In this document: positions 8,283 through 30,870 of the stretch, in pieces
Layout: the number at the start of each line of letters is the position of its first letter
How positions within the stretch are numbered: the first letter of the stretch is position 1
Assembly: GCA_025937785.1 (NCBI GenBank)
Contig: JAICQQ010000004.1
Coordinates: forward strand, 62,001-126,000
DNA from: Polyangiaceae bacterium
Lineage (GTDB): Bacteria > Myxococcota_A > Polyangia > Polyangiales > Polyangiaceae
DNA length: 64,000 nucleotides
Direction: 5' to 3'
The notes under the pieces: generated by a model
Database searches by the model: none
What the model saw: only the letters and a program-made list of their open reading frames with translations
What the model was told of the DNA's origin: nothing
Program-made: the position numbers and the translations under genes

Positions 8283-8861
8283 GGGTGGAGGGTAGCACCA
8301 GCTGGCGGCGTTCTGCCCCAGGCGTCGGATTGCGCTGGCGCCACACGCTGCATCGGCCGCGCGAAAGGTCGCGGCGCCTCGACAAAGTCGGCGGGTGCGC
8401 GATCCTCCCAGGGATGTCGGTGCCCGCCCCACACGCGGCAGCGCCCAGACCACGGGTCGCACCGTGGCGCCGAGCGTGCGGCCGCATGGTCGAAGTGCGT
8501 GCCCCGGCCCAGTGGCGCTTAGTGAGCGCGCGCTTTGGAGCGTTCTGTGATGAGCCGATGTCGATCTGCGGAAGCTCGCGGCTTTTTTTCGCGCACCCAC
8601 CTGTGCATCCGGCTAGCGAGCGCGCGCCGCCGCTAACGGCAGGCACGAGCCTCCACACATCCGGTGGGTCGGTACGCGCCGCTGCGAACGTTTGCCCGAT
8701 CCAGGGCGCGGAAAAGTGACACGGGCAGGCTCGCGAAGCACCCGGTCGAGCCCCGGGTCTGGTACCCTGCAAGCTCATGGAATCATTACGGCGGATGGAG
8801 CCGTTGCGAGCACCCGCTGCATCATTACGGCTCACGCGAGCCTCCAAGGTCTGACGGATAC
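8283..8861. other. Long intergenic region upstream of the giant TPR gene
   Basis: This 579-base stretch between divergent genes has no credible coding region: the open frames are Arg/Pro-rich on both strands. It contains a 6-bp hairpin (CCACGG/CCGTGG, 8450-8467), a weak terminator-like element (AAGC-TCGCG-GCTT then a T-run, 8572-8589), and the direct repeat listed separately. It probably holds the promoters for the DUF362 gene and the TPR gene. Confidence 0.4.
8782..8830 (+). repeat. 10-bp direct repeat upstream of the TPR gene
   Basis: ATCATTACGG occurs at 8782-8791 and again at 8821-8830, 39 bases apart (close to four helical turns), ending 31 bases before the chosen GTG start of the TPR gene. 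The spacing on one face of the helix is what paired activator or repressor sites would show, but chance cannot be excluded. Confidence 0.35.
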
Positions 8862-14800: not shown

Positions 14801-17800
14801 TGAGGTGCACAAGAGCAAGACCGGTAACGCTCGTGCCGCTCTCGACGCGTTCGTGAAGGCGCGCGACTGGGCGAGCGCGATGGAGGTCGCGAGCACGGAT
14901 CAGGCGGATCCGATGTTGAGCCAAGACGTGTGCCGCTCGCTGCTCGACCAAGCCGTCAGTATCTGGCTCAGCGCGCCCGACGCCGAAGAAACAGCGTGCG
15001 CCGCCGCGCAGTTCGCGATCGCCCAGCTGAGCCAGCGCCTGCTCGCCAGTAAGAGCTACGCGGACGTAGTCGACTTGTTGCTCAAAGGTGCCGAGCTGCC
15101 GTTCGACGACACCTACAGCCGACAGTTGCGCCGACAGGCCGCCTTCCTGTGCGCGGACGAGCTCGACGATGCCCCGCGTGCCATCGTCGTGTTCAAGGGC
15201 TTGTTTGCCGAGGACCCGCAAGACGCCGTTGCGGCCTCTTCCGTGGCGCGCTTGGCGACGCTATTCGAGATCGCGGAGCAGTACGACGACTTGGTGAGCT
15301 TGTGGGAGCAGCAAGCGGGCTGTCACGAGAGCGCGCGGGACACGGCCAAAGCTGCTGAGCTGTGGACCCTGGCGGGTGAGCTTTCGGAGCAGCGCCTGCT
15401 CGATGTCGATCGTGCGATGTTGGACCACCGTCGCGCGGCCGCTCTGCGCGGGGAGCCGTCGCTCGAGGCACTGGCGCGACTCCACGCCGCGCGCGGAGAA
15501 CCGCTCGACGCTGCCCACGTGCTCGAGTGGCTGTGCTCGCAATCGACCCCCGCCGAGCTCGCGTCGCGAGCGCTGGTGATGGCCGAGCAGTACCTGAAAG
15601 CGGGCAGGCCCAAAGTGGCTCGCGCGCGCCTGGAGCAAGCGATGCAGGTTGCCGCCGACCCGGCGCCGCTCCGCAAGCGCCTGGCGGAGCTGTACCGCGA
15701 CGCCAAGCAATTCACCCCGCTGGCGACGCTGCTCGCGCTCGAGGCGACATTTGCCCCGGACCTGGCCACCCGCCTCGGGCTCTTGCGTGAGGCGGCGCGC
15801 CTGCACGTGCTCGAACGCCAAGATCCGAACAGCGCTGTGCCGCTGCTGGCACAGGCCGTCGAACTCGATCCGGAAGACACCGAGCTCAGGCTATCACTGG
15901 CCGACGCGTACCGGCGCGCCGCCCGCTATGACGAAGCCATCTTGACGCTGCGCACCCAGATCGACCGCTACGGCGCGCGCCGACCGAAAGAGCGCGCGCT
16001 CGTGCACTACCGCCTGGGGCAGGTGTGTATCGCCGCCAGCAGGCGCGCCGAAGCGCTGGCCGAGCTCGACGCGGCGAACAAGATCGATCCGGCCCACGCC
16101 GGCGTTTCGCAGGCGCTGGCACGGCTCGCCTTCGAAGAGGGCGACCTCGACCGAGCCGAACGCATGTACCGGGCGCTCTTGTTCGTGCTCGGCACCGCCG
16201 ACTCGGAAGATGCGCCCAGTCGCGCCACAGCGCTGTTGGATCTGAGTGAGATCGCCGAGAAAAAAGGCGACGCAGTGCGTGCCGAGGAATTCATCGAATC
16301 CGCGTTCGAATCCGCCCTGGAGCACCAACACGAAGCACGGGCGCTCGAGAAAGCCTTGAAAGAGCGCGGGCGGGTGGGCCTCTTGGCGCGAGCGCTCGAG
16401 AGCCGCCTGAAAGAGAACTTGTCCCCCGCGGAAGCCGCGCGCGCGATGGGTACTCTGGTACAACTAGCGAGCACTGGGCATGTCAAGGAGCTCGACGAGC
16501 GCGCTCTGAAGCGGCAGGCCGAGACCGTGTTGAAGGGGCTCGAGCAGGAACGCACCAGCGACGCTTCGGCTTGGACCGCGCTGTCGATGGTGTTCGACCA
16601 CCTGGGGGACCGCCAGAAAGAGGCTTTGATCCTCGAGCAACAGGTCGCAAGCTGGGCGGAGGCCGGCGAACAACCCGATAGCGCCGAGCCCTATTACCGC
16701 CTCGCCGCTGCTCGGCTCAAGACGGAGCCCGGCCAGAGTGAGGCCGTCGACCTGCTGGAGCAGGCCCTGGCGATCGACAACGACGTGAATCGCGTCGAAA
16801 GCTTGTTGCGCGAGGCGCTCAGTGCGGGGACCACGGATGCTCGCACGATTCGCCTGTTCGAGCGCGTCGCGAGGACCGCCGGCAACAAGCGCAGCTTGCT
16901 CGAAGCCCTGACGATGGCGGCGGCGCTGCCGGACGCGGGCATCAAGGTACTGCGCGAGGGGGTCATGCTGGCGGAGCAGCTGGGGGCCGAACCTTTGAAG
17001 CAGGCCATTTTGGAGCGAGGGGCGGCGCGCAATGAAGGCACGTTGGAGCCCCAAGACCACGCCTGGGTGCTGATGGAGCTCGCGCAAGTGCGTGAAATGT
17101 CTGGAGATTCTGCGTCGGCCTTCGACCTGCGTGAGACCGCGGCCGAGCGTCTGCCTCTGGAAGAGGGGCGCACGCTGCTGCTCGCGGTGGCCCAAACCGC
17201 TCGAGCGCAAGGGGCACTGGCGCGCGCGGCGCGCCTGCTGGAACGCCTGCGCGAACGCGAGCCTCAAGACCGGGAGGTTTGGGAGCCGCTGCTTTCGGTC
17301 TATCACGAGCTGGAAGATCCGGAGCGGATCGCGACCCTGCTGCAAGAAACGATACCGTTGGTGGACAGCGCGCTCGACCGCAGCAAGCTCCGACTCGAGC
17401 AGGCCAACGTCGTGCTGAACGCAGGTGACGAAGACCGAGCCATCCAAATTTTGCGTGACACGCTGGAAGAAGACCCCCGGCACTTGGAGGCCGCAGAGAC
17501 GCTCACCAGTCTGCTGAAGCGCACGGGGCGCACCACGGAGCTCGCCGAGCTCTTGCGGGTGCAACTCGACGCCGCAAAAGACCGGCAGAAGGTGGACTCG
17601 ATCGTGGCAGCGTCGATGCAACTCGGGCAGCTGCTCGAGACGAAGGACCATCATCGCGACGCCTCGGACGTATACCGCGCGGTGCTCGATTGGGATCACG
17701 GCAATCGCGACGCCCTGCGTGGGGTGGTGCGCATGGCGGAGCTGACCGGCGACAACTACGCGATCGCCGACTCTCTCGAAGCGCTGCTTCGGGTGGAAAC

Positions 17801-19301
17801 GGCCGAACATTCGATGCCGCTCGTGAAGCGCCTGATTCAGTTGCGCGAAGAGACCCACGACACGGAGGGGGTCGAGCGCGCGCTGGAACTCGCGGTGCAC
17901 GCGAACCCCCTCGACGTCGACCAGCGAGAGGCGCTCGTCGCGCGTTACAAGAAGCGGGGCGAGCCGGCGCGAGCCGCAGAGCTGCTGGCCCGCGCGCTCG
18001 AGCTTGCGCCAGACGACTGGGACCTCATGCGCCAGGTTCTGGCAGCGTTCCGCGAAAGTGGGGAGCTCGCCCGCGCCCTCACGACGATCGACCGCCTGAT
18101 CCAGGCATCGCCTGACTCTGCAGACCTGCTGCGCCAGCGGGCAGAGATCCGCGCTGAAATCCGCGATCTCGACGGCGCGTTGGAGGATCTCGAGCGTGCG
18201 TATCGGCTGGACCCGAGCGACCACGAGCAGCTCCTAGCTGCGCTTCAGCACCGCCTCGAATTACGCCCCGATGACCAAGCTACCGTGCTCGAGCTCGTGA
18301 ACGTGCTGCTCTCGGCGCGAAGGCCCGACGAGGCTCGGGACAGATTGCGCGAGTTCGTCAAGGCGCAACCCAGCGACAAAGCCACGCTGATCAAGCTGGC
18401 AGAGCTCGATCGAAATGCCGAAGACTGGGATGCTGCCACCGACTCCCTGAAGCGGCTGATCACGGTCGAGCGCGGCGAGGGGATCGTTCCCTTGGCCTTC
18501 GAGCTCGCTCAGGTGGCGGAGGCGGCGGGACGCCCCGCAGACGCCCGCAGCGCGCTGGAGCGAGCGCTCAGCGTGGACCCGACGAACACGAAGCTCGCCG
18601 AGCTCTTGCGGCGCATGTACGAGGCCATGGGCGCGCACCGTGAACTCGCGGAGCTGCTGCTGCACGATGCTGGACAGAGCCAGGACGACGAAGCTCGCTT
18701 GCAGGCGCTGCTCGGGGCGGCGGGCTTCCTGCTCGAGGAAGACGACGAGGCCGAACGCGCCATCGAAGTCTTGGAGCAAGCGCGACAGCTGGCGCCTCAG
18801 GACCTGGACGTGGCCACGCTCTTGGCGCGCGCCTATGCGGGCCTCGGCAGGCAACAAGAAGCGTTGATGATCCTGGAGGATGCAGCGAACAATCAGCGCG
18901 GCCGCCGCCAGAAGGGGCTCGTCGGCGTCTACGTCGAAATGGCCAACATCCTGCAGGAAGGTGACGCGGCGGCGGAAGCGCTCCAGGCGCTGACCAAGGC
19001 GCACGAGCTGGATCTTAAGAACCCGCACCTGGCGATGCGCCTCGGGCGTCTAGCGCTCACGCTCGGCGAGGACCAACAGGCACTCCGCGCCTTCCGCTCG
19101 GTGACCATCATGAAGCCGAGCGAAGACGTCTCGAACGAGGACATTGCGCGCATGAAGGGCGACGCCCATTACCACCTCGCACTCCTCGCTGAACGCCAGG
19201 GCGATCCCAGAAAAGCCAAGATCCTCTGCAGCAAGGCTCTCTCCGAGGATCCGAGCCACGCAGGAGCTGCCCAGCTCCTCGACCAACTCAGCCAAAGCTG
19301 A
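8862..19301 (+). CDS. Giant tetratricopeptide-repeat protein (3,479 aa)
   Basis: A very large, probably cytoplasmic protein built almost entirely of TPR-like helical hairpins from about residue 90 to the end. Units carry the usual small/large pattern (A..Y...L...P....A...LA) with frequent DP, NP or ADP turns, for example DPAHQATFEALEYFLA near the start and DPSHAGAAQLLDQL at the end. There is no signal peptide, membrane helix or catalytic domain. Such superhelices act as protein-binding scaffolds; the partner is unknown. GTG at 8862 is chosen because the first TPR helix soon follows; a second GTG at 8877 is possible, and residues encoded upstream of 8862 look non-coding. The reading frame is intact over 10.4 kb. 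It is a single-gene unit facing a convergent gene. Confidence 0.85.
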   Translation: MTNEKVTRASEKLLSKLQETHTALERALDAPFEVLDLLVTAVSKGEEPTETWELLHQAAERDGKIQELGFAYESMAADKRVRLLTADQQAYIYLWAVHFFGGQFGDAEGALTYGQRALAVDPAHQATFEALEYFLAESPAIERLAPLYLKAAQHETEPTRRLALLTRATELVSGRPADDDLARAAYEQLLAENPRDLAAREALAARHLQVHQPQEAVRLFEFALEVTPPLDAAQQRDVRERLIDMYQSTLKQPERALPHVEGLLQVEPNHPTALAIAESLREHRSVGLRATAALSDAYSAAGQAERAIEMLNIELSRVRGPRRVEVGRRLAIYRQDLLNDPAGALELLGPVVAGDPGNDEMRQRFVALSLALDQTQQASRLLSRALSTTRDPNVRARVGVDVGEVFLKTGDLKRAEAAFLQVLETREDPPSILRAARRLVEHESPDPAQRARVLALLVEHESEKERRQAAARRLAKLCETEIEDERLAITAYRALLGSPYSDEALAKLEALYQRHSSPEGMAEVLTYRAERSKDPAEARELAFRAAELRSEQGSDYAAALDAWRQVVEKHGPSREAYDRILPLLEKLEDYEGLAEALAETAKLQPADEASATLARLGQLRIEFLGDARGAVAAFHAALQADPENRASRQALERLVQVAGLELEAARVLEPLYRAEQNATGLVTLLKARAGVAATPDERLAALSEAVTLAHESLADGALAFDLAGRGLLVAAEQDPPSVAPWLERVQSLGASTGDTTRLADVLQRAFGKEPVTSHERLALARAAADALAQAGRIEDSVAVYRRALAFQRSPDLVERVDQLLVQLGNPGERLELYESALTSEADPLRRAALHKALAELYRRELENPARAIEHWRAALEQAPGDTGARMSLVDLLTEGGELEAAYAELEHGLSLGAGSERQPTLERLAELAAQSGSLSKALEHYREILQIDAVSDALLERIQGVAEQLADGTTVQAVIERRIKTATDPGQKVALLESAAENALERLADTNAAIEQFLSAAKLAIAELADDPTAVRLYERILALDPNSRPTAERLVELYSRTNLWSKLAVPFQILRRQLEADETAQLLLSLEERAVTAGAAEVFVELADSVLGDAKLHEHARPIALAKVRVLSSDPARADEAAEHYKELIESSRPESTTELDAFEQFLATSPPSATKNIHQRWLFGVRATRATDPIPTLLEWAEVEERQLGDPERALELYQRVVGLAPGRVDALTELARLQSEQGQGEAALESLRSLAEELDGDAKAKVELRIAKLLMDPLQRPVEALEVAEATLRRSPGDPDGLDLALRALHFPASRTRAAQHLENAAEFFADPAERARVLETLLSLSEDNPELREARGRWLKGLLAIKSDDPRGSLEVALRAAQADPADDELWSAAERFARQLDLPDPVALAYSRAIAEDLPPELAETLGRRVVEFHEEWFEDNQRVVELLRRVLELSPSATWAFDRLKLEFNATAKWQDLFSLYDKALEHAKDDVARTELLREVSMAAKDFAGDAEKAIYYLEKLHTLNPKDDRVEASLERLYERNNHYRPLIELLSARLTAANGADDMALRERMARLWMELDEPLAALELVQHILEKGQAERVVDLLESLVALPAARDSMTPAPSDEQESRSRKRKQRVITVRERASQHLRTYYQETGSIPDVVRMLEVAVETAQNDEQRVKRLKQIIKVRLNELEDSAGAFENVSQLVGLEPHEAQFRKLLHQLAERLGAHDRQAELLVSVGDLASDPKLKVVLWSEAAAVQKEQLFDAPKSIELFLRVLELARVDERAALAAARQLDPMLEEARRFAERCSVLERLADLETDADARRAAQSAAARVAFQELGDPARSIRNWQARLASDREDVEALDGLVLAYTAAEAWDDLVQTLAQRSALQADPALKRADLVSVARVHVDRRGDVPSAIDTWRSVYQMLPDDGEAFDALISLLTHEERWSELATLLDERAVLEDSEERKSALNRQLGEVHKSKTGNARAALDAFVKARDWASAMEVASTDQADPMLSQDVCRSLLDQAVSIWLSAPDAEETACAAAQFAIAQLSQRLLASKSYADVVDLLLKGAELPFDDTYSRQLRRQAAFLCADELDDAPRAIVVFKGLFAEDPQDAVAASSVARLATLFEIAEQYDDLVSLWEQQAGCHESARDTAKAAELWTLAGELSEQRLLDVDRAMLDHRRAAALRGEPSLEALARLHAARGEPLDAAHVLEWLCSQSTPAELASRALVMAEQYLKAGRPKVARARLEQAMQVAADPAPLRKRLAELYRDAKQFTPLATLLALEATFAPDLATRLGLLREAARLHVLERQDPNSAVPLLAQAVELDPEDTELRLSLADAYRRAARYDEAILTLRTQIDRYGARRPKERALVHYRLGQVCIAASRRAEALAELDAANKIDPAHAGVSQALARLAFEEGDLDRAERMYRALLFVLGTADSEDAPSRATALLDLSEIAEKKGDAVRAEEFIESAFESALEHQHEARALEKALKERGRVGLLARALESRLKENLSPAEAARAMGTLVQLASTGHVKELDERALKRQAETVLKGLEQERTSDASAWTALSMVFDHLGDRQKEALILEQQVASWAEAGEQPDSAEPYYRLAAARLKTEPGQSEAVDLLEQALAIDNDVNRVESLLREALSAGTTDARTIRLFERVARTAGNKRSLLEALTMAAALPDAGIKVLREGVMLAEQLGAEPLKQAILERGAARNEGTLEPQDHAWVLMELAQVREMSGDSASAFDLRETAAERLPLEEGRTLLLAVAQTARAQGALARAARLLERLREREPQDREVWEPLLSVYHELEDPERIATLLQETIPLVDSALDRSKLRLEQANVVLNAGDEDRAIQILRDTLEEDPRHLEAAETLTSLLKRTGRTTELAELLRVQLDAAKDRQKVDSIVAASMQLGQLLETKDHHRDASDVYRAVLDWDHGNRDALRGVVRMAELTGDNYAIADSLEALLRVETAEHSMPLVKRLIQLREETHDTEGVERALELAVHANPLDVDQREALVARYKKRGEPARAAELLARALELAPDDWDLMRQVLAAFRESGELARALTTIDRLIQASPDSADLLRQRAEIRAEIRDLDGALEDLERAYRLDPSDHEQLLAALQHRLELRPDDQATVLELVNVLLSARRPDEARDRLREFVKAQPSDKATLIKLAELDRNAEDWDAATDSLKRLITVERGEGIVPLAFELAQVAEAAGRPADARSALERALSVDPTNTKLAELLRRMYEAMGAHRELAELLLHDAGQSQDDEARLQALLGAAGFLLEEDDEAERAIEVLEQARQLAPQDLDVATLLARAYAGLGRQQEALMILEDAANNQRGRRQKGLVGVYVEMANILQEGDAAAEALQALTKAHELDLKNPHLAMRLGRLALTLGEDQQALRAFRSVTIMKPSEDVSNEDIARMKGDAHYHLALLAERQGDPRKAKILCSKALSEDPSHAGAAQLLDQLSQS

Positions 19302-20404: not shown

Positions 20405-20962
20405 TCAACCGCGGGTGAGTTCCACCCCGGTCGCGACCAGCCGGACTTCATCCGCGGTGCCGTCCGCGTTCTTGGCCTTGAAGCTCGCGCCTTCTTGCTC
20501 GAGATGCTGGACGAAGTCGGCCTCCACCTGTTTGACCTGCACCTCGCCCTGCACGCGCGCTCGTGACCCGTCCGAATCCTTCGGAACGAAGAACTGGTGG
20601 GCGCCAAAGAACACCCGGCAACCGGGCGCGGCCTCGCTCTTGTCAGTGGCCAGCTCCATCCAGCAGCCCATCTTCTTGCAGACCCGCCGCACGTCGCCGG
20701 ACACGGTAACGGTCTTGCCCTCGAACTCGCGTGGGTTCGCGAGCACCTTGGCCAGCGCTACCTCGGGGCCGGCGCTGATGGCGCTGCCATGCACGCTCGT
20801 CTTGGAGGTCGCGGGTCTCACCGAAGCCGCAGCGGCAAGAGGCTCGGCAGCGGAGGCCACGGGCTCGGGGGCAGGCGCTGCACCTTTGCAACCGGTGAGC
20901 AAGAGTAGGGCTGCCAGCAACCGGCTGCGCTGCGCGCGCCAGGAGTTCCTCGTTTGGTTCAT
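20405..20962 (-). CDS. DUF4920-like lipoprotein
   Basis: A 185-residue lipoprotein: signal peptide with lipobox LLTGC (Cys near residue 25), an Ala/Pro-rich spacer, then a small beta-barrel from about residue 70. The core segment EGKTVTVSGDVRRVCKKMGC followed by WMEL matches DUF4920, an OB-fold-like family of unknown function in which the paired Cys suggests metal or redox chemistry. ATG at 20962 is used; the same frame stays open upstream but without coding character. It lies 55 bases downstream of the outer-membrane protein gene and 89 bases upstream of the LysM-esterase gene. Confidence 0.72.
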   Translation of the reverse strand: MNQTRNSWRAQRSRLLAALLLLTGCKGAAPAPEPVASAAEPLAAAASVRPATSKTSVHGSAISAGPEVALAKVLANPREFEGKTVTVSGDVRRVCKKMGCWMELATDKSEAAPGCRVFFGAHQFFVPKDSDGSRARVQGEVQVKQVEADFVQHLEQEGASFKAKNADGTADEVRLVATGVELTRG

Positions 20963-21017: not shown

Positions 21018-22736
21018 TCAGAAGTCGAGCTCTTCGACGTCCTCGTCACCGGGATCTTCGACTTCGCTGTCCTCCGACTCGCTCGCGCCGGAGTCGCTGT
21101 CTTCGGAATCGCTGTCTTCTGAGGCGGCGTCCGAAGGCTCCCCGCCGGAAGTCGTGATCTCGGAGCCGGGGAACCGCACGCCCAGCGCGATCCACCCCGA
21201 AAGGTACGTGTCGGTCGCGCCACCGGCGACGCGGGCCACCGGGATCGATGGCAGGTTTTGCGCGCTGCGTTCAGCGGCGGTCGGGATGTGATTGAAGTCG
21301 AAGCCGTAGCGTGTGAAGTCGCCACCGATCAAGATCTCGAAGACGGGGGAGATCGCGTAACCGAGCTGGACGCCGGCGCTGACGCCGGCCCCCTTGGCGT
21401 TCGGGTACCACGTGTCGTAGGGCTGATCAGCGGGACCTACCTGCTGCAGCCCTCCAGTGTCGTTCACGAGCCGGTAAGCGGCGCGGCCGCCCACGCTGAA
21501 CTCTCCGAACTGAAATCGGGGCTGGATCCCCAGATCGATGTACTCGTAGCCCACGTCGGGGAGCGCGTCGTAGTAGCCGTCGAGATCATCCGTGCCGGGG
21601 CTGAGGTAGGGGTACTTGTCATCGTAGATGAGGAACGAGTGCTTGCCGAACACGACGTAGGGCACGATTTCGTGCGGACCAAGCATGAGGCGGTACCGAG
21701 CCCCGACGTAGACGTCGGTGTGCGACTGGTCGAGCTGCCGTTCCGGGACGTTGGGGTCGTACGGATCGGGCAAGGTGGTCGTGGTCAGAAAGCCCTGCTC
21801 GTAGCCGAACATCACGCCGAGGTGGGCGAGCGGGCCATCGACGAAGAAGGCGAGCGGGTAGAGGTTGGCCGAAAACATCAGCATCGGCGAGCCGGCGGCC
21901 GTGTTGTGCTCGAGCGGGCGGTCGTAGGCCGGATCGAAGTCGTTCAGCGTGTCGCTGTACAAGAAATTGCGCTGGTAGAAGCGGAGCCCGAGCTTGAGAT
22001 CCAGAGGGGAGGCCCCGGTCGCCGTCGTCGGCGCCGGCTCCTCCGCTTCGTCTTCTTCGGGAGGCAGCACCTCGTCCTCCATGGAAGCCCCTGCGGGCTC
22101 TTCTTCGAGAGTGACGGGCTCGGCCCCTTCCGTGCTGGCCTCGGGCTTGGGCTTTGCCTTGGGTTTGGGTTTGGGGGCAGCGGCGGCGGCAGCGGCTCCG
22201 ACGGAAGCCGAATCGTCGCTCTTCCCTGCTTTCTTCAACGGCGGCGCCAGAATTGCTCCGAGCTTCGTCTCGAGCTTCTTCTTCATCTCCGGGAGCAGGC
22301 CTCCGCGGACGGTGAGCTTCTCGATGAGTTTGCCAGTCGAACCGTCGTGCACCCACAAGGTGAGGCTCCAGCCGACCTTTTTCTGGAGATTCACACGCCC
22401 GAGCACGACCGCGGCGGCGCCGCTGCTGGCGGCCACCGAAGCGTAGTCCGAGTCCGAGGATCCTTGGGCCACGCTCGCGGCAGCTTCGTCTTGGATCAGC
22501 GCGATGTTGTCGGCGTTCTTGAGCCCCTTGGTGGCCCACTTGCGCATTTCTTCCGACTTCGGACCCACGAATGCGCCGAGCACCACCTTGGTCCGTGCTG
22601 CCCTGGCGATCTGGCCCTTGCTCGCTTCGACCTTGTCTTGTTTGGCAGCGAGCGCCGCACCCGACATCAGAGCCAGGGAGCTTGCCACAGCCAAGAGTAG
22701 AGCTTGCCGTCCTGCGCGACCCGCAATCGTCTGCAT
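21018..22736 (-). CDS. Predicted outer-membrane barrel protein with N-terminal periplasmic domain
   Basis: A 572-residue exported protein. Signal peptide 1-31 (AALA cleavage); residues about 40-190 form a soluble alpha/beta domain reminiscent of CsgG/LpoB-like or TolB-like lipoprotein domains (GAFVGPKSEEMRKWA, VVLGRVNL, LTLWVHDGSTGKLIEKL); then an Ala/Lys/Pro and acidic low-complexity linker (about 195-245); then a beta-barrel-like region with alternating aromatic residues (about 250-520). It ends with an unusual Ser/Asp/Glu tail of roughly 45 residues and a terminal Phe. ATG at 22736 has AGGAA about 7 bases upstream and lies 23 bases after the CX4CH lipoprotein gene, so the two are probably co-transcribed. 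The function is unknown. Confidence 0.65.
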   Translation of the reverse strand: MQTIAGRAGRQALLLAVASSLALMSGAALAAKQDKVEASKGQIARAARTKVVLGAFVGPKSEEMRKWATKGLKNADNIALIQDEAAASVAQGSSDSDYASVAASSGAAAVVLGRVNLQKKVGWSLTLWVHDGSTGKLIEKLTVRGGLLPEMKKKLETKLGAILAPPLKKAGKSDDSASVGAAAAAAAPKPKPKAKPKPEASTEGAEPVTLEEEPAGASMEDEVLPPEEDEAEEPAPTTATGASPLDLKLGLRFYQRNFLYSDTLNDFDPAYDRPLEHNTAAGSPMLMFSANLYPLAFFVDGPLAHLGVMFGYEQGFLTTTTLPDPYDPNVPERQLDQSHTDVYVGARYRLMLGPHEIVPYVVFGKHSFLIYDDKYPYLSPGTDDLDGYYDALPDVGYEYIDLGIQPRFQFGEFSVGGRAAYRLVNDTGGLQQVGPADQPYDTWYPNAKGAGVSAGVQLGYAISPVFEILIGGDFTRYGFDFNHIPTAAERSAQNLPSIPVARVAGGATDTYLSGWIALGVRFPGSEITTSGGEPSDAASEDSDSEDSDSGASESEDSEVEDPGDEDVEELDF

Positions 22737-22759
22737 CGTATTTCCTAAGCCTTCAAGTT

Positions 22760-23281
22760 TCAGGGCGCGGCGGCCACCAAACTGTAAACCCACTGTTCGA
22801 TGCACGTGTGCTCGGGGTCAGGGATGTCGATACCCTTGGGCATCTCGATGCCGCAGGCTTCAGGCGTCGTCTTGTTCATCGAAGTGAGGATCAGGCTTCT
22901 CTCCGGGCTCGCCGTGTTGATGATGAGCTCGGTGGTGCACCCCGCTTCGGTCGCGGGCAGATTCAACAGTTCGGTGGATCGGTTGGGCGAGAACAACCAG
23001 AGGGGCGCGGAAGTTTCGTTCGACTCCGGGGTGCCGTGGCAGGTCTTCGTGCCACACCAGTAGTACATCCCCCCCTCGTTCACGGTCGTGTCGTCGCAGC
23101 CCTCGTTCGGGGACGTGGTCGACGACGTGACGTTGTTGTTGGTAACGACGGTGGGGATCGGTTCGTATTCGTCGTAGGGAGTGTCGAGGTCCGCGGCAGT
23201 CGGGCACCCGGTGAGGCCGAGACCGACGAGCATCGCCCACCCCAGTGAGGTGCGGTGGGATGCGGTCACGGCCTGCTTCAC
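22760..23281 (-). CDS. Lipoprotein with CX4CH motif, cytochrome c-like (copy 1)
   Basis: A 173-residue lipoprotein: signal with lipobox LTGC (Cys26), then a Thr/Ser/Asn-rich spacer, then a small Cys-rich domain. Cys76-GTKT-Cys81-His82 is a CX4CH arrangement, followed about 65 residues later by GIEMPKG with Met147 and by CIEQW near the end. The order CH, then MP, then W matches the heme-binding and Met-ligand pattern of class I-like c-type cytochromes, here with four residues between the Cys. Four other Cys could form disulfides. Heme binding is an inference; it could instead be a disulfide-stabilised domain. GTG at 23281 gives a proper signal peptide. It is a paralogue of the gene at 23718-24263. 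Confidence 0.65.
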   Translation of the reverse strand: MKQAVTASHRTSLGWAMLVGLGLTGCPTAADLDTPYDEYEPIPTVVTNNNVTSSTTSPNEGCDDTTVNEGGMYYWCGTKTCHGTPESNETSAPLWLFSPNRSTELLNLPATEAGCTTELIINTASPERSLILTSMNKTTPEACGIEMPKGIDIPDPEHTCIEQWVYSLVAAAP

Positions 23282-23717
23282 AGCTCGAGCTGATCCGCGT
23301 GTGCGCTTACCTCGTCGTATGTTCGTGATCGTATTGTTGCTCACCACAGCCGGGGTCATCCTCCAACATTTCCGCGCGCCAAGTCCAGGGGGCAACTTGA
23401 CTCGGGTTGATTAATCTCGCGTCTTTGTGAAAGCCAAGCAGTGTACGAAGAGGCCCGTCAGATTTCCAGGTCGGTTCGGACTCGCGCGTTGTCGTCATCG
23501 AACGCGGCTGCACGGGCGAAGCCTGCTCAGTGTGGCGCGTGAGCCGTGCGTGTCCACTAGCGCCGGCAGCTTCGTGAGCAATGGCCGCTGTTGCCGTAAT
23601 TTTCTAGTTGATGCTCTGTCTGACGGCTGCAACACGGCCGCCGCCAAGATCTCGTCTGGAGCTTCGCTTCGAAGCAGCGACGATCTGCAACCGTTACCGG
23701 GTTGCGCGGCGACCCAC
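23282..23717. other. 436-base spacer between paralogous lipoprotein genes
   Basis: No coding region is supported here. Reading leftward from the upstream gene stop, there is a hairpin GCAACC/GGTTGC (23687-23705, 7-base loop) and a 10-bp palindrome GCTTCGAAGC nearby, possibly ending the first transcript. The rest probably carries a promoter for the downstream lipoprotein/barrel genes, but I cannot place its elements. Confidence 0.35.
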
Positions 23718-24263
23718 TCACTCAGCGGCGACGGCCAGACCGAGCGCCCACTCTTCGATGCAAGCTTGTTGCTCCGGGGAGCTGAGCGCGAAGCCCTTCG
23801 GCATCTCGATTCCGCACGGCGAGGTCCCTCGCAGCGACGTGATGAGCAGGCTTGCTTCGGGATCTACCGTGTCGATGATGAGTTCGGCGCTGCAACCGGC
23901 GGCCGCGGCGGGTCGATTCAGCAGCTCCGTGCTGCGAGCGGGTGAGAACAGCCAGAACGCGTCGCTGTACTGCTGGTTCACGTTACCGTGGCACGACGGC
24001 CCTGAACACCAATCCTGCAGCGCGGGGGTCACGTTCGAGTCGTCGCAAGCACCGACACCCGAGGTCGTGGACGACGTGCTGGTGCTGGTGCTCGGGCCCA
24101 CGGGTTCAGGGGCGTACTCCGCGTACGGGGTATCGAGGTCTGCCCCCGTCGAGCACCCCGCGAGAGCCAGCGCCAGGATCACGCCGAAGCCGTTCTTCCT
24201 TGTCAGCGCCGTGCGACTCGGCCACCCTTTTCGAATCGATGAACATTGCGCTCTTGCCACCAC
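23718..24263 (-). CDS. Lipoprotein with CX4CH motif, cytochrome c-like (copy 2)
   Basis: A 181-residue paralogue of the lipoprotein at 22760-23281. Lipobox LAGC with Cys37; spacer rich in Ser/Thr; Cys86-SGPS-Cys91-His92 (CX4CH); GIEMPKG with Met154; CIEEW near the end. Both copies share ADLDTPYxEY just after the lipidated Cys, LFSPxRSTELLN in the middle, and the Cys spacing outside the CX4CH motif. GTG at 24263 is well supported by GGGAGGAAG a few bases upstream. It is divergent from the thioesterase gene (139 bases between starts). Likely role: surface-exposed or periplasmic electron carrier, not proven. Confidence 0.68.
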   Translation of the reverse strand: MVARAQCSSIRKGWPSRTALTRKNGFGVILALALAGCSTGADLDTPYAEYAPEPVGPSTSTSTSSTTSGVGACDDSNVTPALQDWCSGPSCHGNVNQQYSDAFWLFSPARSTELLNRPAAAAGCSAELIIDTVDPEASLLITSLRGTSPCGIEMPKGFALSSPEQQACIEEWALGLAVAAE

Positions 24264-24402: not shown

Positions 24403-24852
24403 GTGTATCGCTACGACCGACAGACTCTGTTGAGCGTGACTCGTGAGGGGTTCGTTCGCACGCGCCGCGTCCGGTTTCAGGACGTGGACGCTGCTGGCGT
24501 AATTTTCTACGCGGCGGTCTTCGAGTACTGCCACGATCTCTACGTCGAGTACCTGGAGGCTCACGGCGTTTCGCTGGTGGAGGTGCTGAAGCAGCGCCAA
24601 TGGGCCGCGCCCATCCGGCACGCCGAAGCGGACTACCTGCGGCCGCTGCGTTTCGGTGACGAGATCATGGTCAGCCTGCCGGTCGCACACCTTGCGGAGA
24701 GCGAGCTGACGCTGGGTTATCGGATTTCGCTGGCTGGGACGCGCGAGGTGGCGGTAGTGGCGCAATCCGTGCACACGTTCGTGGCGCTCCCGGACTTCAA
24801 GCGCTGTCCGGTCCCGGAGGGTGTATTCATGGCCTTTCAGCCGCTCGTGTAG
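24403..24852 (+). CDS. Hotdog-fold acyl-CoA thioesterase, candidate DHNA-CoA thioesterase
   Basis: A 149-residue hotdog thioesterase of the 4HBT/YbgC class. The N-terminal block RRVRFQDVDAAGVIFYAAVF contains the catalytic Asp of this family (D in FQDVD), followed by helix EYCHDLYVEYL. In the menaquinone pathway a hotdog enzyme (MenI type) hydrolyses 1,4-dihydroxy-2-naphthoyl-CoA; the position beside menE and the other men genes supports that role, but a fatty acyl-CoA thioesterase cannot be excluded. GTG at 24403 is chosen because GAGGT lies 6 bases upstream. Its last 16 bases overlap the 3' end of menE on the opposite strand. Confidence 0.75.
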   Translation: MYRYDRQTLLSVTREGFVRTRRVRFQDVDAAGVIFYAAVFEYCHDLYVEYLEAHGVSLVEVLKQRQWAAPIRHAEADYLRPLRFGDEIMVSLPVAHLAESELTLGYRISLAGTREVAVVAQSVHTFVALPDFKRCPVPEGVFMAFQPLV

Positions 24853-26288
24853 CCAGAACCTGGCGGGGAGCCGAGGGGCGTGAGCGCCAGCGAGCTGGAG
24901 TCTTTCAGCGTGCGCCGCAGCAGCTTGCCTGACGCGAGCTCGGGGAGCTGCTCCACGAAGGTGACGGCGCGCGGGCGTTTGAAGGCCGCCAGCGCTTGGG
25001 ATGCGAGCAGCAAGCGATCGATCAGGGTGGGGTCCGCGGCTCCCTCGATGGCCACGGCGACTTGCTCTCCCCAGAGCGCGTCGTCACGACCGAACACGCA
25101 GAGTCGCCGCGGCGCTACGGCAGGCGCGAGCACCTGCTCGACCTCGAGCGGGTTCACGTTCTCGCCCCCGCTGATGATTCGGTCCGCCAGGCGCCCGAGG
25201 ACGTGCAGACAGCCAGCGGCATCGATGTGCCCCAGATCGCTGGTCGCAAACCAGGTCGAGGGCCCGTACACCTCCGCCTCCCCCCAGTAGCCGCTGAATA
25301 GCATGCTGCCGCGCGCGTAGATCTCGCCGTCCACGATCTCGACCTCGACGCCGGGGAGCGGGTGTCCGACACCAGCCTCCGGGGGGTCGGCGCGTAGGGC
25401 TTGCGTGCAGATCTGTGAACAGGTTTCGGTCATGCCATAGCTCGCCAGCACCGGCAGTCCGCGAGCGCGGGCTCGTTCCAGCGTCGCCACGCTCGCGGCA
25501 GCGCCCCCCACGAGCACCGCCCGAAGCGTGCTAGGTGCGCTCCAGCCGCGCAGTTCGAGGAGCTGCTCGAGTTGTGTGGGCACCAGCGACAGCAATGAGA
25601 CCTCGAGCCGCGCCAAGCTCTCAGCCACGCGCGCGGCATTCTGGCCGGGGCCACCCCGTGGGGCCAGCGTGGGGAGGGGGAGGGCGATCGCGCTGCGCGC
25701 GGCCAGACAACGGGTCAGGATCGACAGCCCGCCGATGTGCGCGAACGGCAACGCCAAGAGCCAGCGGTCGTTCGGAGTCCAGCCGAGATGTGCGGCGCTC
25801 GCCGCAGCGGAGGCTTGGAAGGCGCGGCGACTCAAGCATGCGAGGCGTGGACCCGCTGTCGTCCCGGACGTTTGAACCAGCGCCAGCGGAGCCTCGGGCC
25901 CGTGGCTGTGACGGAGCGTGGTCGCCGCGGGCGCGACCACGGGCGCGTGCTGCCAAGTCGTGTCTACGTAGAGCGGTGACTGCGCGCGCGCGAGCAACGC
26001 ACTGCGCTCGGACTCCGTGAGTCGCGGATGCACCGGCAGGCAGGGTACACCCGCGGCCAGCAAGGCAAACGTCATCGCGATCTGGTGGGGAGTCGGCTCC
26101 GCCAACACGGCCACGGCGCTCTCCGCAGCGCCCGCGGCGAGCGCCACGCCGTGCGCCTGCAGCCAGCCCAGCGCGCGCGCCGAGAGCGCGGCCATTTCCG
26201 CATAGGTCCAGTGGCGCTCGGGCTCGGCCAGGGCCAGGCGCTCAGGCGCCTGACGGGCCGCCGCGAACACGTCGAACGGGTCAGTCAC
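24837..26288 (-). CDS. menE: O-succinylbenzoate--CoA ligase
   Basis: Activates o-succinylbenzoate to its CoA thioester in menaquinone synthesis. This 483-residue ANL-superfamily ligase has the ATP-binding loop QTSGTTAGPRLA, the motif YGMTETCS, the hinge region SGGENVNPLEVE, and the C-terminal ASGKLLRRTL with the catalytic Lys. The loop has Arg where most ANL enzymes have Lys, a tolerated change. GTG at 26288 overlaps the last 8 bases of menC and is preceded by AGGAG with 5-base spacing, so translation is probably coupled. It is the last gene of the leftward men operon. Confidence 0.9.
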   Translation of the reverse strand: MTDPFDVFAAARQAPERLALAEPERHWTYAEMAALSARALGWLQAHGVALAAGAAESAVAVLAEPTPHQIAMTFALLAAGVPCLPVHPRLTESERSALLARAQSPLYVDTTWQHAPVVAPAATTLRHSHGPEAPLALVQTSGTTAGPRLACLSRRAFQASAAASAAHLGWTPNDRWLLALPFAHIGGLSILTRCLAARSAIALPLPTLAPRGGPGQNAARVAESLARLEVSLLSLVPTQLEQLLELRGWSAPSTLRAVLVGGAAASVATLERARARGLPVLASYGMTETCSQICTQALRADPPEAGVGHPLPGVEVEIVDGEIYARGSMLFSGYWGEAEVYGPSTWFATSDLGHIDAAGCLHVLGRLADRIISGGENVNPLEVEQVLAPAVAPRRLCVFGRDDALWGEQVAVAIEGAADPTLIDRLLLASQALAAFKRPRAVTFVEQLPELASGKLLRRTLKDSSSLALTPLGSPPGSGYTSG

Positions 26289-27387
26289 CGAGCTCCTGCC
26301 AGTAGTCGATCGGGCTGATGCCTGTGCAAAAAGAGCCCGGATCGATGCCACGGCCAAGGCCCGAAGGCGGCGGCACGCAAGCCTGCGGCGCGCGGGGCCA
26401 GGCGCCGAGCCCTGCGTGCGGAGCCAAGCCAGCGGCTAGCCGTGGACTCTGCACGACACAGGCCAGCGCGGAGGCTGCGGCCAGCGCGACCGGACCGTCG
26501 AACAAGTGCGTCACCACCACGGCGCAGCCGGTCGTGTGCGCCGCGTCGGCCAGGCGCAGACACTCAGAGAACCCGCCGAGGGCCATGGGCTTTAGCACGA
26601 TGACATCGGCGTGCGCTTGGCGGAGCAGCGCGGGCAGCTGCTCGCTGCTGGCGCTGCCCAGCGTTTCATCCAGCGCGATCGGCGGGCGGGTCGCTGGCAG
26701 CGAGGGCCACAGCTCGGGAGCGCAGGGCTCTTCCAAAAACTCCAAGCCGAGCGCGACCATGCGCGGCAGCGCACACTCGAGGGCTTCGGCGCCGAGCTTG
26801 CGATTGGCGTCGGCGCGGAGCTGGATCCCGCCGCGCTGCCGCAAGTGCGTCAGCGTGTCGAGCGCCGGTTCCCAGCGCGATCCGAACTTCAGCTTCAGAG
26901 TGGTGTAGCCCTGCCCGATCAGATCGAGCGCGCGCTCGCGGGCCTCGGGCAGGGTGGCGTCGAGGACTGCGTTGAGCTCCACGCGCGGCAGCGCCGGGCG
27001 TCCGAGCAGCTCGAACGGGGAGCGCCGTTCTCTGCGGCAAACCAGGTCGAGCAGCGCCGTCTCGAGCGCGAACGCCGCGGCGGGCAGGCTGGGATCCAGC
27101 AACCTGCGAGCGCGAGCCAGTGCCGCGAGCACGCTCTCGGGGCCCGGGTCGTCAAAGCAGTCGGCGAGGTCGCGGGTGTCGAGTCCCGCCAGGGCCGTCC
27201 TGCACGAGGCCAGCGAGTCCTGGCTGAAGCCAGGCAGCGGCGAGGCTTCGCCCAGGCCGACGTTGCCCTCCGCATCTCGTAGCCTCAGGAGCAGCCCCGC
27301 GCGCCGCCGCTCGGGAGCCTCGGGGCTGCCCACCGGGCGGGCCAGGGAGCTCGACACTTCACGGATCGAAAGATCGAAGAGCCTCAT
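26281..27387 (-). CDS. menC: o-Succinylbenzoate synthase
   Basis: Dehydrates SHCHC to o-succinylbenzoate in the menaquinone pathway. A 368-residue enolase-superfamily enzyme: KLKFGS holds the KxK acid/base pair, then metal ligands in ADANRKL, FLEEPC and ALDET, and the opposite-face Lys in [12 protein letters not shown] at 27387 overlaps the menA stop (ATGA) and the gene overlaps menE by 8 bases. Length and motif order are normal for MenC. Confidence 0.9.
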
Positions 27388-28331
27388 GGCTGGCTCGCAT
27401 CAGCAGCGAGCCCTAGCGTGAACAGCACGCCGAACGTCAGCAGCAGCTTTGCCGTGCCAGTCAAGGTTTGGTTCAACGGTGTGCCGCGGTCGCGGAAGAC
27501 TCGACGCGTCAGGACCACCGCCCACGGCAACGTCACCCACGGTAGCAACGCGCTCTTCCCGATCTCGCCGCGGGCCACCAACAACAGCGGCACGAAATAG
27601 GCTGCGGCGAGCAGCAGCAGGTACTCGTACTGACCGGCGCGCCTACCAAAACGCACCGCGAGCGTGCGTTTGTTCGCGAGCACGTCCGTGTCGCGGTCGC
27701 GCACGTTGTTCACCACCAGGATGGCCGTGGCCAGGCCACCCACGGGTACGGACGCCCAGATCGCGAGCGCTGGGACCGCGTGCAGCTGCACGAAGACGGT
27801 GCCGCACACCGCGACGAACCCGAAGAACATCAGGACGAACACGTCACCCAGGCCGTGGTACCCGAGCGGGTAGGGGCCCGCCGTGTAGGCGATCGCCGAA
27901 GCGATCGACAACAGGCCGATCACCACGATGGCTGGACCGGCGACGGCGGTCAGGTACACGCCCACGAGCAGGGCCAAGCCGAAGACAACCCCCATCCCGA
28001 GGCGCATCGCGCGCGGGCTGATCAGGCCCGCCTGCACCGCCCGCAATGGGCCCAGGCGGGCGGCGGTGTCCGCACCTTTCTCGAAATCGAACACGTCATT
28101 GGCGAAGTTGCTGCCTATCTGGAGCAACAGCGCGCCGACGAGCGCTGCCAGCGCAGGCTGCCAAGCGAAGCCTCCGAGCCGGTAGGCGACCGCACTGCCG
28201 ACCGCGACGGGCACGGCAGCGGCGCTCAGCGTCTTCGGGCGGCAGGCGATCCACCAGGCGAGCACGGAGTGCGCGCGCACGCCGGGTGACGTGCCGCCGG
28301 TGCCAGCGACGCTCGGCTCGTGTGTCAACAC
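27384..28331 (-). CDS. menA: 1,4-Dihydroxy-2-naphthoate polyprenyltransferase
   Basis: Integral membrane UbiA-family enzyme that prenylates DHNA to demethylmenaquinone. 315 residues with eight or nine hydrophobic segments. The first Asp-rich motif is [11 protein letters not shown] (about 85-95) and the second is VRDRDTD followed by [10 protein letters not shown]; both bind Mg-prenyl diphosphate. GTG at 28331 is chosen because it overlaps the menH stop by 7 bases and has a GAGG sequence just upstream; the in-frame upstream extension is Arg/Ala-rich and overlaps menH almost entirely. The menA stop overlaps the menC start. Confidence 0.9.
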
Positions 28332-29077
28332 GCACCCTCGCTCTGGCGCTGCATCACCTGAGCGAGCCACTCCGGTTGTTCGAGCACGACGTTGTGCCCC
28401 GCCCGGGGAGCCAGCTCGAGTCGTGCTCTGGGGAACAGCTGCAGCATGGTTTCGCCGAGACGCCGGAACTTGGCGTCTTCTGCGCCTACCACGAGCGCGA
28501 CGGGTAGGTCGAGCGCTGCCAGGCGCGGCCAGTAATCGGGCATCTCGCCGAGGCCGAGCGCGGCGAGCGCGTGCGCGAGTCCCTCGGCGGTGTGTGTCAG
28601 CCGCGCGCGTCGCTGCTCGGCGCGCACGGCTGGCTCGAGCGCTGCCTGTGTCGCGAACAGGGGCAACCGCTCCCACTCGTCGACGAACGCCGTTAGCCCG
28701 TGCTCGAGCAAGCGTTTCCGGAGCTGCTCGTCGGCGTGCTTGCGCGCGCGGCGCTCGCTGTCGCTGCGCAGACCGGGGTTGGCGCCGATGAGCACAGCCC
28801 CGGCGAAACGATCCGGGGCTGCGGCGAGGAGACCGAGCGCGAGCCGCGCTCCGAGCGAGTAGCCGAGCAGAAAGGTCGGGCCGTGCTGGCGTTCGGCGAG
28901 CCAGCGCGCGAGGCGCTCCAGCTCGGCCTCGAAGCTAGGTGCCCACGCGGCCGGCGGCGACCCGTGGCCGGTCAGCGTGGGACTGAGGAAGCGGGCACCT
29001 GGCGCGCTCGCTGCCGCCAGCGCCCGGAAACACTCGGGGGTACCGGTGAATCCGTGCAGGCACAGCCAAGTCGTCAT
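28325..29077 (-). CDS. menH: SHCHC synthase (alpha/beta hydrolase fold)
   Basis: Converts SEPHCHC to SHCHC in menaquinone synthesis. 250 residues; [11 protein letters not shown] near the N-terminus, nucleophile Ser74 in LGYSLGAR, and the His in [11 protein letters not shown] near the C-terminus are the MenH pattern. Position between menD and menC-side genes supports this over a generic hydrolase. Its ATG shares one base with the menD stop (TGATG), so translation is coupled. Confidence 0.88.
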
Positions 29078-30870
29078 CAGCGGGCCTCGGCCTCCGAGAG
29101 CGCACGGAGCCTGGCGCCGAGCAGTTCCGTAGCTTCTTGGTAGCTATTCGGTGCCACGCGCACGTGCACCAGCGTCGCTCCCGGCTTGGCGTAGGCGGCC
29201 CGCAAGGCACGCGCGACTTGAGCGGCGTCTTCGGCCAGCTGGTAGCCGATGCCATAGCCTCGAGCGATGGCATCGAGCGCCAGATCGGGCGGTGTACGCC
29301 AGAAGCGTCTGTCGCGCTCGGAAGCGGTGCTGGCGTCGCCCATGGGCAGGCCGTCGAAAATGCGCCCGCCAGCGTTGTCGATCACCACGATCGCAAGTGA
29401 AACTCCGCTGCTGCGGGCCAGCAACAGACCGCCGACGTCGTGGGCAAAGCTCACGTCACCGAGGACGAGCGTGGTCGGGCGCGCGCCCGCGCTGGCGATC
29501 CCGGCAGCGCCGGACACCAGCCCGTCGATGCCGTTCGCGCCCCGCTGTACGAGCGTGGTCACGCCCACCGCGCGCGGTCGGGCGAAGGCATCGGCCGCAC
29601 GTAGAGGCAGACTGTTCCCGAGGAACAGCAGCGACTCGGCAGGCAACTCGTCGATCACGGCTCGCACCGCGTGGGCTTCGCCGAACGGCAGCGCCGCTAG
29701 CAGCTCGTCTTGTGCGGTCGTCACGCGTGCGCGCGCGACACTGAGCCGCTCGCCCCACGCGGTGCGAGCCGCAGCCAAGGCTCCGTCCGGCGCCGGCCGC
29801 GCCCGCACCAGCTCCGCCAGACGAGCCGCGAAGGCACCGGGGTCACTCGCGTGGAGCCAGCTCGCGGAGGCGGCGACGTCGGGCCAGCCGTGGCGAGCCA
29901 CCAGGTGCCGCCGCGCAACGGAGAGGCTCGCCTCGAACGCCAGCCACGCCTGGCTCGTCAGGGGGGGGCCGAACTGCAGCACGAAGTCGGGTTCGCTCCC
30001 GCGCAGCCCCGCGAGGGCAAGCACGCTGCCGACCGCGGGCGATACGGGAGCCGCCACGTGCCCGAGGACGAGTTGGCTCGGCACTTCGGCGATCAGCGGG
30101 AGGCCTGTGACCCGAGCCAGGGTGCACACCGACTCCGCTGCGCCAGCGTCGCCCGCGGGTAACGCTCCGCATACGATGAGGCCACGCTCGACCCGCGCGA
30201 GCTCCAGCGCCACGGCCTCGACGCCGGTAGCATCCACGCCGCGTCCGTCGCGGCTGAAACGTGTCGGACCGCGTTCGATGAGCGCTTGCACGCTGGCTTC
30301 CAGCGCGACGTCGTCGGCGCTCGCCGCGCGCATCGGAAACAGGGGCTTGGCGGCCGGCGCGTTGAGATGCACCGGGCCCGGCAGCGGCCCCGCCGCCAAG
30401 CGCACGGCTTGGGCCACGGTCGCCGTCAGCGCCAGGAGCTGCTGCTCGGTCGAGCCCGGCGCACCGAGGTCGAACGAACCGCGCACCACGTTGCCGAACA
30501 CCCCCAGCTGATCGATGGTCTGCGGAGCGGCTCGGTGCTGCAGCTCGACGGGGCGATCGGCGGTGAGCGCGAGGAGCGGAATGTGGGAATAGCTGGCTTC
30601 GACGAAGGCGGGGCAGTAGTGGGCCATCGCGCTGCCTGAGGTCGCGATCAAGAGCGATGGGCGGCCCGTCAGCTTGGCCTGGCCCAGCGCGAAGAACGCC
30701 GCGCTGCGTTCATCGATCGCGCTGTGGCAGGTGAGTCCCGGGTGCTTGAGCGCCGCCCAAGTGAACGGTGTGGAGCGCGAGCCGGGACTGATCACCGCGT
30801 GCTCGAGGCCGCTCTGGACCAGCGTGTCGATGAGCAACCGGGCCCACTGAGTGAGCAGGACCGCCGGCAT
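29077..30870 (-). CDS. menD: SEPHCHC synthase
   Basis: Thiamine-diphosphate enzyme that adds a succinic-semialdehyde unit from 2-oxoglutarate to isochorismate. 597 residues with the three ThDP-enzyme domains in order. The activating Glu lies in DERSAAFFALG (about residue 55) and the cofactor/Mg motif runs from GDVSFAHDVGG to VVIDNAGGRIF near residues 470-510. The start is ATG at 30870, three bases after the menF stop. The gene overlaps menH by one base. Confidence 0.92.
   Translation of the reverse strand: MPAVLLTQWARLLIDTLVQSGLEHAVISPGSRSTPFTWAALKHPGLTCHSAIDERSAAFFALGQAKLTGRPSLLIATSGSAMAHYCPAFVEASYSHIPLLALTADRPVELQHRAAPQTIDQLGVFGNVVRGSFDLGAPGSTEQQLLALTATVAQAVRLAAGPLPGPVHLNAPAAKPLFPMRAASADDVALEASVQALIERGPTRFSRDGRGVDATGVEAVALELARVERGLIVCGALPAGDAGAAESVCTLARVTGLPLIAEVPSQLVLGHVAAPVSPAVGSVLALAGLRGSEPDFVLQFGPPLTSQAWLAFEASLSVARRHLVARHGWPDVAASASWLHASDPGAFAARLAELVRARPAPDGALAAARTAWGERLSVARARVTTAQDELLAALPFGEAHAVRAVIDELPAESLLFLGNSLPLRAADAFARPRAVGVTTLVQRGANGIDGLVSGAAGIASAGARPTTLVLGDVSFAHDVGGLLLARSSGVSLAIVVIDNAGGRIFDGLPMGDASTASERDRRFWRTPPDLALDAIARGYGIGYQLAEDAAQVARALRAAYAKPGATLVHVRVAPNSYQEATELLGARLRALSEAEAR

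Follow-up and report, generated by a model that had tools for sequence, protein, structure and literature searches.

We analysed a window of 64,000 nucleotides from a Polyangiaceae assembly that comprises 9.4 Mb in 501 contigs and is 94.86% complete and 8.59% contaminated. On the reverse strand of the window lie the genes of two related lipoproteins, here called P1 and P2, and the gene of a predicted outer-membrane barrel protein of 573 residues, which begins 20 bases after P1. The features of the locus are as follows.

22760-23395, reverse strand: P1, lipoprotein with one CX4CH cytochrome c-like domain (open reading frame)
23718-24263, reverse strand: P2, lipoprotein with one CX4CH cytochrome c-like domain (open reading frame; 49% identity between P1 and P2)
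23204-23215, reverse strand: P1 lipobox LTGC, then the tail CPTAADLDTPYDEY (sequence; tail motif common to barrel-paired relatives)
24153-24164, reverse strand: P2 lipobox LAGC, then the tail CSTGADLDTPYAEY (sequence)
23036-23056, reverse strand: P1 predicted heme-attachment motif CGTKTCH (CX4CH; sequence and family alignment)
23988-24008, reverse strand: P2 predicted heme-attachment motif CSGPSCH (CX4CH; sequence and family alignment)
22832-22852, reverse strand: P1 GIEMPKG with the predicted distal Met ligand (sequence; column invariant in the family)
23793-23813, reverse strand: P2 GIEMPKG with the predicted distal Met ligand (sequence; column invariant in the family)
22763-23122, reverse strand: P1 predicted cytochrome c domain, 120 aa modelled (AlphaFold2 from 78 sequences, pLDDT 88.5, pTM 0.81)
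21018-22739, reverse strand: predicted outer-membrane protein with a TolB/FlgT-like N-terminal domain and a 10-strand barrel (open reading frame, model, conserved gene order)
22224-22601, reverse strand: N-terminal alpha/beta domain of the barrel protein, residues 47-172 (Z 14.4 to FlgT 3w1e)
21174-22004, reverse strand: predicted 10-strand transmembrane barrel, residues 246-522 (model strands; structure match)

P1 and P2 share one layout, in which a hydrophobic signal and a lipobox are followed by a short Ser/Thr-rich linker, the CX4CH domain, GIEMPKG and a final Trp helix. The lipobox cysteine follows a hydrophobic stretch in both proteins, as read by eye. The original prediction, which described two related lipoproteins with CX4CH, GIEMPKG about 60 residues further on and then a Trp, was accurate: both open reading frames are present at the coordinates listed above, the distance from His to Met is 65 residues in P1 and 62 in P2, and a search with P1 retrieved P2 at the listed identity (E 1.8e-44). 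The P1 reading frame is given from its longest possible start, a TTG at 23395; the true start is probably nearer the GTG at 23279-23281, which fits a signal peptide. No Pfam family was matched by P1 or P2 at E up to 10, PF07635 (PSCyt1) included, and neither protein matched an NCBIfam cytochrome model. The cysteine spacing is 4 in P1 and P2, as against 2 in canonical CXXCH cytochromes.

Profile-profile alignment (hhalign) was used to compare the family with canonical cytochrome c domains. The family profile, A1, consists of 25 domains, every one with a spacing of 3, 4 or 5, and was aligned with 12 CX2CH domains. The match had a probability of 99.6 and an E-value of 2.3e-24, which is flattering because the CX2CH set was picked among A1 hits. 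The alignment opens a two-residue gap between the cysteines, and the first Cys, the Cys-His, the Met-Pro and the Trp all line up. With the heme-motif and Met-Pro columns turned to X, the probability was still 99.0 (E 3.6e-18), and 20 column shuffles reached at most 0.6. The c-type cytochrome layout originally proposed for P1 and P2 is supported by this homology. Among 78 members of the family, Pfam matches at E up to 0.01 were to PF07635 (17 members), PF13442 (8) and PF00034 (5), and TIGR03806 was reached by 7 of 25 members at E up to 1. The PF07635 PSCyt1 domains and the SO2930-family diheme cytochromes of TIGR03806 have the motif, the Met-Pro and the Trp helix in the same order as the family, and CX2CH proteins of this kind from the window's own genome align to the family profile. 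In contrast to those CX2CH proteins, P1 and P2 have CX4CH and two extra cysteine pairs. A1 gave 13 domain matches in this genome: four are accounted for by P1, P2 and one protein with two CX4CH domains, and the rest are ordinary CX2CH cytochromes, some with two CX2CH sites and PSCyt1 domains. In the same genome, a reading frame at L003:916-2004 (reverse strand) encodes two CX4CH domains with a Thr/Gly-rich linker between them. These alignments place P1 and P2 in a large Myxococcota family that is related by descent to cytochrome c domains of the canonical CX2CH type.

Structure comparison provided leads rather than proof. A Foldseek search of the P1 model against the PDB returned no convincing match (best E 4.3). 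When seven PDB chains were re-compared with the model, only FoxE (Z 4.8 over 101 residues) and 8gy2 (Z 2.6) scored 2 or more, both below the level that the structure tool calls trustworthy. The 8gy2 match covers the end of chain A of a membrane alcohol dehydrogenase, which we take to be its cytochrome part. In a search of PDB sequences with the profile, FoxE was again the best match (E 0.0092); cytochromes c6 came next, with E-values of 0.14 or poorer. FoxE (PDB 5mab), from a phototrophic iron oxidiser, is the best PDB match by sequence and by structure and is weak on both; its chain of 291 residues carries the title of a putative iron oxidase, whereas P1 and P2 each present one domain on a lipid anchor.

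The family is widespread. Taking order and phylum as the groups drawn by the genome search, P1 has relatives at E up to 0.001 in 60 of the 183 genomes from its order, and A1 detects members at E up to 1e-4 in 197 of the 282 genomes that represent the phylum. A first motif table held 147 unique profile hits, two being fragments too short for the whole motif. The set used for the tree comprises the 139 domains that remained of 188 distinct domains after a similarity filter, with profile hits shorter than 85 residues dropped; a second alignment, A2, holds 78 domains hand-picked from the 139 plus two window domains. Conservation of the His and Met had been set beforehand as the test of the cytochrome proposal, and all 139 diverse domains have the first Cys, His, Met and Pro. 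As a guard against circularity, barrel- and lipoprotein-centred loci were searched with a motif-blind profile in which the heme-motif and Met-Pro columns were masked. CXnCH and MP were carried by 63 of 64 domains in the fetched loci; the one exception keeps the His and the Met-Pro and lacks the second Cys, so Met-Pro is present in 64 of 64. Degenerate non-heme relatives were sought in the same loci, and that one domain was all that the motif-masked profile found. Conservation and the masked-profile results together rule out P1 and P2 as chance lookalikes.

The spacing of heme-binding cysteines is usually regarded as a near-fixed signature. In this family it is 4 in 100 of the 139 domains, 2 in 25, 3 in 8 and 5 in 4, and the two outliers are one CXCH and one domain without a second Cys. 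CX4CH is therefore the usual form in the family, which does not support the original view of it as unusual for the single heme of a lipoprotein. On a tree inferred with the motif columns excluded, and with the CXCH and second-Cys-less domains left out of the counts, spacing changed at least 26 times and crossed between 2 and a longer value at least 15 times; these are rough numbers because the tree is poorly resolved, with 81 of 136 inner branches open. The repeated changes suggest that the spacing can vary freely, whereas CH and MP stay constant. If this is right, heme-cysteine spacing drifts freely in a large bacterial family in which the iron ligands stay fixed, and a motif scan that accepts only CXXCH would overlook the majority of these cytochromes. 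In iron oxidisers, CX4CH sites have been counted in heme scans, according to excerpts of PMC5566968 and PMC10734462. Tetraheme cytochrome c3, like P1 and P2, uses CXXXXCH, and does so twice (excerpt of PMC10454114); it has four hemes, whereas CX4CH is the sole site in P1 and P2 and is combined with a predicted His/Met pair. A family member with one residue between the cysteines lies at L159:151-447 (reverse strand). Another, at L261:3712-4077 (forward strand) and in the same place as L012, reads C-x4-G-H, having lost the second heme Cys and kept the His and the Met-Pro; it may possibly carry a single-thioether heme.

In the favoured reading, heme in P1 and P2 would be attached through both CX4CH cysteines, the His next to CX4C would be its proximal ligand, and the distal ligand would be supplied by the Met of GIEMPKG. 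It is improbable, in our judgement, that no heme is bound and that CX4C is instead a third disulfide, with the His and Met binding a metal such as copper, or nothing. Such a reading draws on the pairwise co-occurrence of the four other cysteines of the domain, and the literature searched yielded no characterised protein with CX4CH as its sole heme site. The His, however, directly follows the second Cys in 138 of the 139 domains whatever the spacing, CX2CH relatives occupy the same gene position, and the homology to CX2CH cytochromes survives masking of the motif. That CX4CH serves the function of CX2CH is best supported by the profile comparison and by the fact that both motifs occupy the same place beside the same partner. 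The mid-domain Cys and the Cys of the Met loop are both present in 87 of the 139 domains, both absent in 40 and single in 12; the N-terminal Cys and the Cys before the Trp are both present in 55, both absent in 68 and single in 16. Since the members of each pair come and go together, two disulfides are suggested, which leaves the CX4C pair for heme. One would join the Cys before the first helix to the Cys before the final Trp, and the other the mid-domain Cys to the Cys just before the Met loop. A phylogeny-aware test of the cysteine pairs had too few supported pairs to back the disulfides.

We next consider the barrel gene, whose association with the cytochrome genes is conserved and which carries more weight than the original proposal gave it. 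Adjacency was classified by domain coordinates. Among the loci recovered by the P1 search, 22 of 29 carry a barrel-family gene alongside, all on the same strand; among those recovered by the profile search, a set that overlaps the first, 19 of 29 do, and never on the opposite strand. Fifteen further loci around other lipoprotein hits include 8 with a barrel. The barrel comes first in a minority of paired loci. Approached from the other side, 64 loci around barrel hits have a cytochrome-family domain upstream on the same strand in 42 cases, downstream in 1 and not at all in 21, of which 7 are at contig ends and 14 are away from a contig end. The 21 loci without a cytochrome nearby indicate that the barrel does not always need one. 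The 48 domains located upstream of a barrel, a count that takes in both window domains as well as two loci reached through the cytochrome, have CX4CH in 42 cases, CX2CH in 4 and CX3CH in 2, with MP in all 48. A second barrel-family gene of the same genome (G000:C401:4348-5778; L195), 33% identical to the first, has no family cytochrome within the 9.8 kb around it. The recurrent lipoprotein-barrel pairing suggests a hitherto undescribed cell-surface device of two parts. The open-access literature searched, which leaves subscription journals mostly outside, contained no paper on the P1/P2 family or on a cytochrome-barrel gene pair, and the conserved pair is named here.

NCBIfam and Pfam give the barrel protein no name. 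Its relatives (E up to 1e-5) were found in 56 of 177 genomes of the order, and a barrel profile (E up to 1e-15) found members in 49 of 282 phylum genomes, 34 of the 49 being in the same order. The model consists, in order, of a signal helix, the alpha/beta domain, a low-confidence linker and 10 long strands. By VIA-align, the N-terminal match to FlgT 3w1e extends over 120 residues, and CT253 and TolB 7mx5 follow with Z 12.1 each. The barrel part is closest to pOmpT 7xw0 (Z 20.7, a fold match to the omptin proteases) and OpcA 2vdf (Z 20.5). We would place the TolB/FlgT-like domain in the periplasm and the 10-strand barrel in the outer membrane.

These properties bear on the original proposal that the lipoproteins form a set with the adjacent barrel, perhaps for small-molecule or extracellular electron transfer. 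The gene link was borne out by the 22 of 29 loci above; the extracellular conduit was not, the modelled barrel having only 10 strands. A conduit for extracellular electron transfer built like Cyc2 or MtrAB, in which the barrel encloses the cytochrome, would be suggested by a cytochrome gene that adjoins an outer-membrane barrel gene and by FoxE, a putative iron oxidase, as the closest PDB sequence match. We nevertheless consider it very improbable. The modelled 10 strands, with OmpT and OpcA as the closest structures, compare with 16 in Cyc2 and 26 in barrels of the MtrCAB type (excerpt of PMC8406198), and one heme is unlikely to span the membrane. A barrel of 10 strands, as modelled, would be too narrow to hold a cytochrome, which makes electron conduction through the membrane unlikely. 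Cyc2 resembles P1 and its barrel in linking one heme domain to an outer-membrane barrel, but in Cyc2 the two are fused, with CXXCH and the wider barrel (same excerpt), whereas here there are two genes, CX4CH and the narrower one.

A further link between lipoprotein and barrel may lie in the stretch directly after the lipid-bearing Cys. Barrel-paired lipoproteins tend to share a tail there that reads roughly C-P-G-x-L-x-N-P-E-x-F, of which P1 and P2 carry the variants listed above. A survey of 91 distinct proteins, 11 of them without a recognisable lipobox, found this tail in 36 of 43 lipoproteins with a lipobox encoded upstream of a barrel, 5 of 15 encoded downstream and 2 of 22 that were non-adjacent; the pattern was written after the upstream group had been viewed, and the counts ignore relatedness. 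In two genomes of one genus, the reading frames just before the barrel (L217:5635-6219, reverse strand; L225:2601-3176, forward strand) have the signal, the lipobox and a LEDPDRF tail and no cytochrome domain, and stop about 30 residues past the lipobox. These tail-only lipoproteins hint that the tail, not the heme, may tie the lipoprotein to the barrel. As a tentative extension that we regard as possible, the genes could encode a two-gene outer-membrane redox module, widespread in one Myxococcota order, in which a monoheme lipoprotein, its spacing drifting from CX2CH to CX5CH, docks through its tail onto a barrel with a TolB-like periplasmic domain.

The same observations bear on what we rank as the most serious rival, a stabilising role like that of TfcP. 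The heme would then be structural, with no electron transfer, and the lipoprotein would aid folding or stability of the barrel, as TfcP does for PilY1. TfcP is a precedent from Myxococcus xanthus: a small single-heme cytochrome c that, like P1 and P2, is encoded beside its surface-protein partner, which it stabilises, and for which electron transport was reported to be unlikely (excerpt of PMC8833165). The conserved pairing with one barrel family fits such a role, as do the two genomes that keep only the lipid tail before the barrel. We consider it unlikely all the same. Compared by description only, TfcP has CxxCH, a Cys as distal ligand with a very low potential, and PilY1 as its partner, whereas the distal ligand predicted here is an invariant Met; moreover, TfcP is soluble and not a lipoprotein.

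Collectively, these results favour a redox role. P1 and P2 are quite likely c-type cytochrome lipoproteins, each with a single heme ligated by His and Met and probably sited in the outer membrane, that work with the adjacent barrel protein. Methionine is the usual distal ligand for electron transfer. The cytochromes would be made together with the barrel protein and would probably act beside the barrel. The lipid-anchored heme domain could exchange electrons with a periplasmic donor or with a molecule that the barrel handles. Most likely, the heme would pass electrons one at a time, on the periplasmic side of the outer membrane, to something that the barrel handles, and not through the barrel.

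The genomic surroundings were also inspected. A CcmE match is present in the genome (E 6.6e-19) and ResB gave no match there, which is consistent, from gene content, with System I maturation, CcmE being the sole System I gene sought. Promoter and terminator scans gave nothing informative. After the barrel gene, on the same strand, lies a DUF4920 lipoprotein-like reading frame (20405-20800, reverse strand; PF16267, E 3.7e-14) with a CKKMGCWM stretch, which is a possible further member of the gene group. Beyond P2, the interval 24430-30870 holds a 4HBT thioesterase gene and genes for an AMP-binding enzyme and a MenC-like enzyme, and further reading frames in it resemble menaquinone synthesis genes. 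At a greater distance, 8664-19301 on the forward strand is occupied by a single reading frame of 3545 residues with tetratricopeptide-like repeats throughout, as read by eye.
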